The notes under the pieces are model-generated. The model saw only the letters and a program-made list of their open reading frames with translations. It had not been told where the DNA came from and made no database searches. Positions 28,269-30,458 of a stretch of 64,000 bases of DNA are shown here, in pieces. Source of the stretch: Lacihabitans soyangensis. GTDB taxonomy: Bacteria > Bacteroidota > Bacteroidia > Cytophagales > Spirosomataceae. A program made the position numbers and the translations under genes. Every line of letters starts with the position of its first letter. Position 1 is the stretch's first letter. The DNA is taken from positions 62,001 to 126,000 of the forward strand of contig NZ_RJUF01000173.1 of the NCBI RefSeq assembly GCF_024343775.1, in the 5' to 3' direction.

Positions 28269-28694
28269 ATGATTAAACTTTTTACCATTCTTTTCATAAT
28301 GGCATCGACGGTTTTTACTTTTCTTTTTGAAAAGAAAACGACTTCAAGTCCGCAAAAAAAGAAATTTCACCGATACAACACCGACACCAGCAGGGTATTT
28401 TACTACTCTTTTAGCCAAGAAAAAGTAATAGACTTAAAGGCAAAAGCCCTACCACTAAAAAATGAAAAACTGACGGTAGTGAAAGGAACCCAAGTGCTGC
28501 TTGAAGCTCCTATTTTTCATGCCAATGCACTGTATCTATGGGAAGGACCCAACGGTTTCAGGTCGTATTCTCAAAATGTACTGCTCGAAAATGTTCATAC
28601 CAACCAAAGCGGTATCTATACGGTATCGGTAAAAAAAGCTAACGGATTGGTTTCTGGCAAAATAGAATTGACAGTGGTCGAGAAAGACTTTTAA
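28269..28694 (+). CDS. Secreted or membrane-anchored protein with one Ig-like domain
   Basis: A 141-residue protein with an N-terminal hydrophobic segment (residues 3-20) and a basic linker. Residues about 63-138 look like a single immunoglobulin-like fold: VVKGTQVLLEAP, then ALYLWEGPNGF (the conserved Trp) and NVHTNQSGIYTVSV, matching the D-x-G-x-Y Ig signature with Asn-Gln-Ser in place of D-S/A. Such domains are usual in Bacteroidota surface proteins. It is divergent from the ABC transporter genes (106 bp from the chosen ATG) and 61 bp upstream of the HExxH mini-protein. Confidence 0.65.
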   Translation: MIKLFTILFIMASTVFTFLFEKKTTSSPQKKKFHRYNTDTSRVFYYSFSQEKVIDLKAKALPLKNEKLTVVKGTQVLLEAPIFHANALYLWEGPNGFRSYSQNVLLENVHTNQSGIYTVSVKKANGLVSGKIELTVVEKDF

Positions 28695-28755: not shown

Positions 28756-29079
28756 TTGATTTTAATAAAAGGCATAAAACTACCTAAAATACTTGGCATA
28801 GCTGTCTGGCCTTTTGTTTTGGTAAAAACCAAAACGCCTGGAAAAACAATTCTTAACCACGAGCGTATTCACCTCCGTCAGCAAGTAGAAATGTTGGTTC
28901 TACCTTTTTATTTCTGGTATCTTTTTGAATGGCTGGTTTTGTATATCAAGTATCGAAACATTGATAAAGCCTATCGCAATATTAGTTTTGAAAAAGAGGC
29001 TTACAAAAACGAAAGCAACATGAACTACTTGAAAAACAGACCTTTCTGGAACTTCATGAAGTATTTGAATATCAAATAG
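28756..29079 (+). CDS. 107-residue membrane protein with HExxH motif, putative mini metalloprotease
   Basis: The protein carries HERIH at residues 35-39, followed by RQQ, a strongly hydrophobic segment (residues 46-64) and a FEKEAY segment (Glu79/Glu81) that could supply a third zinc ligand. This is the gluzincin-like order HExxH...E in a very small frame. No ATG is available: an in-frame TAA at 28750-28752 leaves TTG 28756 as the most likely start. I recall similar short unannotated proteins in Bacteroidota, but activity is not established. It follows the Ig-like protein gene and overlaps the convergent hemN stop by 8 bp. Confidence 0.65.
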   Translation: MILIKGIKLPKILGIAVWPFVLVKTKTPGKTILNHERIHLRQQVEMLVLPFYFWYLFEWLVLYIKYRNIDKAYRNISFEKEAYKNESNMNYLKNRPFWNFMKYLNIK

Positions 29080-30442
29080 TTTGAGAAAAAAGCTTCTCAG
29101 TTTTCATGTTCTTGGACAAATATTGATCAAAAACCATACAGATATTTCTCACAAAAGCCCTTTCTAATACCACCAGTCCGCTTGGTCTTAATTCGAGAAT
29201 CCCGTCTGTTTCCATTTCTTGTAGTGACAGCTGAAGCTCCTCGGAATCAATAATACCGAATTGATCATCAGTCCAAGCGGTTTCGAAATGACACATCAAA
29301 TTCAGAATTTGCTCCCTCACAAAAAGGTCTTTCTCTGTCAAAATATGCCCTTTTTCTACGGGTAAAGTTCCACCAAAAACCTTGGCTTTGTAGGCTTCTA
29401 TATCCTTAGCATTCTGGGCAAATGCACCCCAAATATCACTTATGGAAGACGCTCCAAGACCAATCATGGCTCTTGACGATTGAGTGGTATAGCCCATAAA
29501 GTTGCGGTGTAGTTTCTTCTCGCTCATTGCCACAAAAAGTTCGTCGCCCGGCAAAGCAAAATGATCCATACCAACCTCGGCATATCCAGCCTGCTCAAAA
29601 AGTTCTAGTCCGACCTCGTACAAAGCCCGCTTTTCGCCGGCCGTTGGCAAGTCATCATCTTCAAAACCTCGCTGACCGTTGCCTTTTATCCAAGGCACAT
29701 GAGCGTAAGAATAAAACGCAATACGCTCAGGCTTAAGCTCTAAGGTTTTGAGAATAGTATTTCTGACCGATTCTAATTTCTGAAAAGGCAATCCAAAAAC
29801 AAGGTCATGACTAACCGATGTGTAACCGATTGCACGAGCCAATTTGGTTACATTTTCTACAGCCTCAAATGGTTGAATCCTGTGGATGGCTTTCTGAACC
29901 ACAGGGTCATAATCCTGAACGCCGAAACTTACTCTTCTAAAGCCCAAATTATACAAGGTCTGAAGGTGCTCTTCGGTGGTGTTGTTCGGATGACCCTCAA
30001 AGCTAAAAGCCTGATTTTCTGACACATGAGCATCTTTCAAAATTCCCGTCAACAGTCTTTCAAGGTTATCTGAAGAAAAAAAACTAGGTGTTCCTCCGCC
30101 TAAATGAATCTCTTTGATGGTAGGTTTTACACCTAATATGTTCAAGTACATCCGCCATTCAGCCAAAAGGGCATCAATATAAGAACCTTCCATACTGTGG
30201 TTTTTGGTGATTCTCTTGTGACAGGCACAAAAGGTACAAAGGCTCTCACAGTAAGGTAAGTGAATGTATAAACTCAGTCCATTTTCGACAATTTCCTTTT
30301 TCCCAAAAGACAAAAGTCCCTGGTGCCATTTTTGGGTATCAAAGTGCTCTAAATCCCAAAACGGAACCGTCGGATAACTGGTATATCTCGGCCCGGCAAC
30401 ATTGTATTTATCTATGAGGTTTTCTGTGTTGGTTAATTGCAT
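29072..30442 (-). CDS. hemN: Oxygen-independent coproporphyrinogen III dehydrogenase
   Basis: From ATG 30442 it encodes 456 residues; an in-frame TTG at 30451 is less likely. The start NVAGPRYTSYPTVPFW (residues 13-28 in part) is the classical HemN N-terminus, and the radical-SAM cluster motif CESLCTFC (CxxxCxxC) follows IHLPY. GGGTPSFF is the SAM-binding segment. It decarboxylates coproporphyrinogen III to protoporphyrinogen IX without oxygen in heme synthesis. The conserved N-terminal PRYTSYPT and the length favour true HemN over the HemW look-alikes. A TAnnTTTG box lies just upstream. Confidence 0.94.
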   Translation of the reverse strand: MQLTNTENLIDKYNVAGPRYTSYPTVPFWDLEHFDTQKWHQGLLSFGKKEIVENGLSLYIHLPYCESLCTFCACHKRITKNHSMEGSYIDALLAEWRMYLNILGVKPTIKEIHLGGGTPSFFSSDNLERLLTGILKDAHVSENQAFSFEGHPNNTTEEHLQTLYNLGFRRVSFGVQDYDPVVQKAIHRIQPFEAVENVTKLARAIGYTSVSHDLVFGLPFQKLESVRNTILKTLELKPERIAFYSYAHVPWIKGNGQRGFEDDDLPTAGEKRALYEVGLELFEQAGYAEVGMDHFALPGDELFVAMSEKKLHRNFMGYTTQSSRAMIGLGASSISDIWGAFAQNAKDIEAYKAKVFGGTLPVEKGHILTEKDLFVREQILNLMCHFETAWTDDQFGIIDSEELQLSLQEMETDGILELRPSGLVVLERAFVRNICMVFDQYLSKNMKTEKLFSQTI

Positions 30443-30458
30443 TCCAATCAATTTTTGA

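Follow-up and report, generated by a model that had tools for sequence, protein, structure and literature searches.

Catalysis by zinc peptidases carrying an HExxH motif depends on the glutamate of the motif, whereas zinc binding does not. The ImmA/IrrE-PprI (M78) and SprT/SPRTN peptidases are soluble, have functions linked to DNA, and are longer than the 107-residue protein considered here. The minigluzincins selecase and abylysin, which we take to make up the provisional family M95, are reportedly soluble, as the title of a 2013 paper has it.

For BlaR1, the account in PMC9834060 describes a zinc ion held by His201, His205, and Glu242, an active site on the cytoplasmic side, and a third-ligand signature of the form ExxxD (E242xxxD). 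For MecR1, PMC6925264 describes a re-entrant helix (residues 213-243) lying between HE205LSH and E245KVCD, as well as an isolated core that remains membrane-bound without the transmembrane helices; the same source gives a third histidine as a ligand of the minigluzincins. An Asp-zincin-type family of about 110 amino acids is described in PMC3890501, which also mentions a minimal Glu-zincin that, as far as that account goes, was without detectable activity.

Here, we describe a gene of Lacihabitans soyangensis that, with a probability that we place at roughly 0.7, encodes a free-standing and probably membrane-associated minimal gluzincin, similar to a BlaR1/MecR1-type (M56) core without the chamber and the sensor.

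The gene and its relatives in chromosomes and phages

The DNA analyzed here, referred to as the window, is a stretch of 64,000 nucleotides. ORF and family searches place the gene for the minimal gluzincin-like protein at 28756..29079 on the forward strand, where it begins with TTG and encodes 107 amino acids (MILIKGIKLPKILGIAVWPFVLVKTKTPGKTILNHERIHLRQQVEMLVLPFYFWYLFEWLVLYIKYRNIDKAYRNISFEKEAYKNESNMNYLKNRPFWNFMKYLNIK); inspection by eye shows no evident signal peptide. An earlier note on this DNA had pointed to the TTG start, to HERIH at residues 35-39 (28858..28872, forward strand), and to an FEKEAY segment, which occupies residues 78-83 (28987..29004, forward strand). Both motifs are indeed present, and the start is backed by relatives, as the matching codon is TTG in the close relative L002 and ATG in L003 and L004. 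The same note regarded the upstream neighbor as a single Ig-domain protein; this 141-residue ORF (28269..28694, forward strand), which ends 61 bases ahead of the gene, matches Ig_2 only below threshold (19.1 bits, with the cut-off at 27). An Ig-like neighbor was rejected as an obligate or constant partner, a match being found in only 9 of 24 loci searched, with flanks of unequal length. There is redundancy in this set, since L090 belongs to the genome of the window, one metagenome-assembled genome (MAG) supplied both L002 and L009, and L091 resembles that MAG. On the other side, a convergent ORF on the reverse strand (29072..30451), presumably radical-SAM HemN-like by its cysteine motif, overlaps the 3' end of the gene by 8 bases (29072-29079).

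Small proteins related to this one form a family in Bacteroidota and their phages. With the single protein as query, 38 loci were matched in a collection of named genomes, one of them (L039) in a MAG labeled Spirochaetes, and matches were also present in 42 of the 296 Bacteroidota genomes. A 34-member profile matched 59 of 395 sampled genomes, two of which (G280 and G288) are weak matches at E 1.5e-8 and 2.4e-6. Among viral contigs, 382 stretches also encode relatives (80 of these stretches were retained), and a set of 50,697 phage records contains 101 that match at E ≤ 1e-3; the phage branch includes crAss-like and Riemerella phages. One matching record, OQ791282.1 (Shigella phage Henu10), shows a match like those of the Riemerella phages, with 50.6% identity, while all other bacterial hosts named among the best 60 of the 101 phage records listed are Bacteroidota, and the Shigella label or host may be mistaken.

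On the phage side, this family is already catalogued. The phrog_15610 profile, annotated 'protease', matches 34 of 34 members, and it matches the window protein at E 2.9e-30 over profile positions 14-104 of 105; several crAssphage records carry the label 'putative zincin superfamily protease', which presumably stems from a published survey of crAss-like phages. The phrog_15610 and crAssphage zincin proteins (for example, BK010471 gp56 and RAP44 gp05) are of the same sequence family as the window protein, with a similar size and the same motifs, but they are phage genes, whereas the window copy is chromosomal and stands with other Cytophagales copies. No Pfam or NCBIfam model matches the window protein, sequence searches of the PDB with two profiles gave only a chance zinc-finger match (E 0.78) for one and none for the other, and a literature search found no paper describing the family. 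PADLOC returned two weak single-member matches and none for the window protein, and a role in anti-phage defense was therefore dropped.

In a tree of 144 rows, from which near-copies (more than 93% alike) had been removed, the window copy groups with Cytophagales chromosomal copies. Phage and cell labels change 9 times on the best tree, and well-supported branches force only 1 of these changes. One genome has a second family copy (L081, G103:C1:211000-224000) that lies beside a 1217-residue phage tail-like protein and is probably inside a prophage. Given this position and the grouping of the second copy with phage sequences in the tree, exchange of the gene between phage and host is likely.

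Conserved residues, predicted fold, and proposed membrane placement

The earlier note had proposed a profile search for invariant His35, Glu36, His39, and Glu79/81, and these residues are invariant in the family except for a single loss of His39. All 146 distinct rows out of 186 were counted, and His35, Glu36, Glu79, and Glu81 are each found in 146 and His39 in 145, so that the free loss of His35, Glu36, or His39 among homologues, which the note had named as evidence to the contrary, did not occur. The conservation extends to Gln42, Tyr55, Tyr73, and Phe78 (146 each), Glu45 and Phe51 (145 each), and Arg95 (144; 29038..29040, forward strand). These counts are partly selected and thus inflated, as viral loci were picked with patterns holding parts of the motifs. 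In the 59 distinct homologues from whole-genome searches, which were homology searches rather than motif-pattern scans, His35, Glu36, His39, Gln42, Glu45, Phe51, Tyr55, Tyr73, Phe78, Glu79, and Glu81 are all present in 59 of 59. The only sequence lacking His39 (L035), from a metagenome-assembled genome, reads HEKILLKQQ in place of HExIH, which could be a sequencing error. Overall, comparison of the homologues demonstrates, at the level of sequence, invariant HExxH and FExE motifs in a family common to Bacteroidota and phages.

The two features of a gluzincin that can be read from these data are an HExxH with its catalytic glutamate and a conserved downstream glutamate on a predicted helix (Glu79, 146/146, helix 77-85), the latter being the putative third ligand. 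Because Glu36 is invariant and dispensable for zinc binding, catalysis is favored over a structural zinc site. Between the two options of the earlier note, a minimal zinc peptidase is thus better supported, by the invariant motif residues, by Glu79 and Glu81, and by a gluzincin-like predicted fold, and a degenerate fold using the motif structurally is disfavored by Glu36 in 146 of 146.

The predicted model is compact and confident. AlphaFold2 with 64 sequences gave pLDDT 92.4 and pTM 0.82, and with 32 sequences pLDDT 87.4 and pTM 0.77, the order of elements being unchanged. The 64-sequence model has strands at residues 2-4, 14-17, and 20-23 and helices at 30-45 (HExxH), 48-66 (hydrophobic), 69-74, 77-85 (Glu79 and Glu81), 91-94, and 99-103. 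In this prediction, therefore, a small sheet is followed by the HExxH helix, the hydrophobic helix, and the glutamate helix. The second and third strands (GIAVWPFVLV, residues 14-23; 28795..28824, forward strand) fall in the stretch that aligns with M56 ahead of HExxH.

In the PDB, matches to the model are weak. Foldseek against the PDB returned only PprI/IrrE at E 4.2-9, with nothing below E 4.2, and against a viral library it returned three phage proteins, each unnamed or uncharacterized, with E ≤ 0.001 and TMq 0.74-0.82, which point to phage relatives. VIA-align was run on a few chains ranked by Foldseek: with the first model, 6 of 11 chains reached Z ≥ 2 (IrrE, PprI, two 'protease dependent DPC repair' entries, and BlaR1 twice; Z 2.6-4.5), with the second model 5 of 9 (PprI, BlaR1 twice, selecase, and one DPC-repair entry; Z 2.3-3.9), the remaining 5 and 4 stayed below 2, and no Z reaches 5. 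For chains of the ImmA/IrrE-PprI and SprT/SPRTN peptidases, the values were 4.5 for 3dti, 4.1 and 3.9 for 8slm, 3.2 for 6mdx, and 2.6 and 2.3 for 6mdw. These values are weak and singly show little; what counts is the uniformity of the matches, since the chains with Z ≥ 2 are all what we take to be gluzincin-type proteins. In the BlaR1 alignment, residues 159-253, a range that spans the ligands His201, His205, and Glu242, correspond to residues 1-90 of the model, and the ranges aligned by VIA are compatible with three predicted ligands converging on a single zinc. Selecase (PDB 4qhf, 109 residues), a minimal gluzincin scaffold of about the same length, aligned with Z 2.5 over 66 residues at 4% identity; it has no sequence-level match to the family, and minigluzincins have a third histidine where a glutamate is predicted here. 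This solved structure and the zincin-like family of about 110 residues run counter to the view in the earlier note that the protein is far below the size of any protease family known to its author.

A mean Kyte-Doolittle value of 1.6 is the usual threshold for a membrane helix. The most hydrophobic 19-residue stretch of the window protein (residues 46-64; 28891..28947, forward strand), which overlaps predicted helix 48-66, has a mean of 1.65 and is thus borderline, and 36 of 64 members reach the threshold. It is the one clearly hydrophobic helix of the protein and is placed between the HExxH and Glu79 motifs, so a single crossing would split the ligands across the membrane. The notion of a tiny membrane protein therefore has to be revised, as one crossing at this position is incompatible with a zinc shared by the two motifs. 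By inference, the segment would be the counterpart of the re-entrant helix of MecR1, and the simplest transfer from MecR1 and BlaR1 would set the core against the inner membrane, on its cytoplasmic side.

On this basis, His35, His39, and Glu79 would hold one zinc ion, and Glu36 would activate a water molecule for hydrolysis of a peptide bond in a substrate that may be bound, as in BlaR1, in strand form alongside the sheet. As in the MecR1 core, helix 46-64 would dip into the inner membrane or rest on it but not cross it, and the active site on the cytoplasmic side could work at the membrane surface.

Comparison with M56 and other zincins

By profile, M56 is the nearest known family, narrowly ahead of eCIS_core (PF13699). 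With hhalign, comparison with 25 M56 segments chosen by PF05569 alone gave E 1.1e-4 for a 34-row family alignment and 4e-5 for a 64-row alignment. An earlier M56 comparison, its 14-sequence subset (E 8.9e-6 and 2e-6), and the spacing count included 8 loci that had been fetched through a match to the family profile, and the E-values just given, which are weaker, come from the repetition without those loci. When the 25 segments were divided by HE[FY]xxD, a motif that we had recognized ourselves, the 7 with the motif gave E 3.5e-4 and 5.7e-5 and the 18 without it, mostly of the BlaR1 type, gave 0.013 and 0.0038. The corresponding values for M48, M78, and SprT were 0.031-0.6, and those of reversed controls were 0.021-0.66. 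ImmA/IrrE-PprI and SprT/SPRTN provide the best or next-best VIA Z, yet their profile E-values of 0.031-0.2 are no better than controls. For eCIS_core, E was 1.6e-4 and 2.3e-4, and the alignment of the shared HExxHxxQQ motif is limited to 19-21 columns round it. The M56 alignment runs through the sheet and HExxH into the beginning of the following helix and leaves out the helix of the third ligand, and homology to the M56 core is accordingly found for the sheet and HExxH part.

Scoring by the family HMM gave at least 5 bits for 20 of 25 M56 segments, 2 of 25 eCIS_core segments, 1 of 11 M78 segments, and none of the 20 SprT and 16 M48 segments reported; for M48 and M78, these are 16 of 25 and 11 of 13 segments, the others having scored below those listed. 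Two eCIS_core segments (L340 and L341) rank fourth and fifth overall, above 22 of the 25 M56 segments. The locus of the former (L138/L340; G072:C11 near 218,026-218,205), found by both the family profile and eCIS_core, encodes a 144-residue ORF with HELVHVRQ and is possibly another stand-alone small zincin. In 39 whole genomes, the best match of the family profile outside the family (E 3.8e-6) is a 457-residue protein with PF05569 and TonB_C, and PF05569 is above its cut-off in 5 of 5 out-of-family matches scanned, namely this one and four further ones. Among 64 members, weak contacts with Pfam models were made with eCIS_core in 8 (best E 0.03), M56 in 5 (PF05569, best E 0.0022), SprT in 2, and PhageMetallopep in 1, while the window protein itself has no match above the curated cut-off for PF05569 or eCIS_core.

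The family shares with M56, especially with the Bacteroidota M56-TonB_C proteins, the order of strand, HExxH, hydrophobic helix, and glutamate helix, and HExxHxRQ is seen in several Bacteroidota M56 proteins. However, there are also clear differences. M56 proteins have a transmembrane scaffold and a sensor or TonB domain, whereas the 107-residue protein has none of these. The second histidine and the glutamate of ExxAD/ExxCD are 37 apart in the 28 M56 segments, out of 33, that were scorable, compared with a histidine-to-glutamate spacing of 40 in 49 of 64 family members (31-41 in the others). In addition, the aspartate of the M56 ExxxD signature, at Glu+4, is replaced in the family at position 83, where 134 of 146 sequences have Tyr, 5 Phe, 4 Asn, and 3 His, and none has Asp. 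The protein resembles the core of M56 peptidases, to which it is probably related, but we do not claim membership, because it lacks the aspartate of ExxxD, a transmembrane scaffold or sensor, and a PF05569 match, and so is not M56 as that family is defined.

Gene neighborhoods, alternative readings, and biological meaning

Outside the window's own family of organisms, the neighbors of the gene suggest peptidoglycan or lysis. In one group of genomes (f7), which resemble named Flavobacteriaceae loci, the gene is often directly followed by a PALP enzyme (PF00291 in L083) and then by a LysM-glucosaminidase. A glucosaminidase lies within 3 kb of the gene in 16 of 27 f7, 6 of 6 f6, and 5 of 6 f4 genomes, and within 20 kb in 24 of 27 f7 genomes; these distances use one position per genome, that of the best match, leaving out second copies, and the genomes tested have 1-2 glucosaminidase genes each. 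A single inherited event may account for the linkage in both f6 and f7, and the f4 arrangement examined (L074) differs in having two glucosaminidases, as well as a weak match to CarbopepD_reg, on the upstream side. At another locus (L086), the end of the gene is overlapped by an ORF for a VanY carboxypeptidase when that ORF is taken to begin at its first start codon. No match to PF01832 (glucosaminidase) was found in the three own-family genomes examined, including that of the window, which weakens the idea of a dedicated pairing with glucosaminidase.

In phage RAP44, the order is tail, small ORF, family gene, holin, ORF, and endolysin. Proteins of a single cluster (cluster 8) are encoded 2-17 bases downstream of the gene in 4 of 56 non-redundant viral loci, and the one tested (L146) is an amidase; in other phages, the family gene is near tail-needle, integrase, terminase, or resolvase-like genes. 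On three viral contigs (L199, L202, and L215), an ORF of one cluster lies 13-15 bases upstream of the family gene. The L199 copy carries an HELVH motif (HELVHVYQFEKG), and these phages would then have two putative zincins side by side.

These observations bear on several alternative readings, of which an ordinary small membrane protein with a chance HExxH is extremely improbable. Two of the 144 window ORFs of at least 60 amino acids carry HExxH, compared with 0.71 expected from residue shuffling, so that one such motif somewhere in the window is unremarkable, and HExxH by itself is not beyond chance here (given the protein's own composition, its chance is 0.0009). Its conservation does exceed chance, however, and the invariance across 146 distinct sequences, together with gluzincin-type fold matches at Z ≥ 2, already refutes this reading. 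A pseudo-peptidase that has kept the gluzincin fold and binds zinc or a substrate, acting as an adaptor, chaperone, or binder, is improbable. The very small size of the protein, the Tyr, Phe, Asn, or His in place of the M56 aspartate, the minimal Glu-zincin without detectable activity mentioned in PMC3890501, and the lack of tested proteolysis among the phrog_15610 records seen would be consistent with such a role, but the invariance of Glu36 in both sets of homologues (146/146 and 59/59) speaks against it.

It is unlikely that the family is related not to M56 but to eCIS_core/SprT-type zincins or to soluble minigluzincins such as selecase and abylysin, the hydrophobic helix then being a packed core helix of a soluble protein. 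The E-values for eCIS_core are close to those for M56, the weak Pfam contacts are more numerous for eCIS_core (8 against 5), and selecase is among the VIA matches; however, the eCIS_core alignment is bound to the motif while that with M56 takes in the preceding strands, far more M56 than eCIS_core segments reach 5 bits, and segment 46-64 is near the membrane threshold, which more than half of the members (36 of 64) reach. Rather unlikely is a phage-derived lysis or infection accessory that was captured by chromosomes and whose domesticated cell copies act on the envelope together with peptidoglycan enzymes. The relatives on viral contigs and in phage records, the position of the RAP44 gene between tail and holin/endolysin genes, the downstream cluster with its amidase, and the nearby glucosaminidases and adjoining VanY all agree with this account. 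Nevertheless, other neighbors are found at most of the 56 viral loci, no peptidoglycan-enzyme gene was seen beside the window copy, the own-family genomes examined gave no PF01832 match, supported branches of the tree force only 1 of the 9 label changes, and wall enzymes in the periplasm would be out of reach of an active site in the cytoplasm.

We return to the minimal gluzincin with an M56-like core, which, judging from alignments and models, appears to be real and conserved; the class of chemistry is known, and the form and the placement of the family would be new to us. A more far-reaching but unlikely reading is that Bacteroidota and their phages share a stand-alone BlaR1-type core that works at the membrane surface in cell-wall turnover or in the control of lysis, in phages as part of a lysis or entry program and in cells by determining how much of some regulator or enzyme of the neighboring peptidoglycan hydrolases is present. 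If this were true, it would be, to our knowledge, the smallest M56-like peptidase, and it would test how little of BlaR1 suffices for membrane-localized proteolysis.

BlaR1 and MecR1 are hard to handle whole, with the catalytic core inside a transmembrane chamber. A natural relative of 107 residues that has the active-site residues but neither chamber nor sensor would offer a simple system for studying catalysis by membrane-associated gluzincins. Finally, the gene is left unnamed by Pfam and NCBIfam in many Bacteroidota and phages, and one functional result would annotate both.
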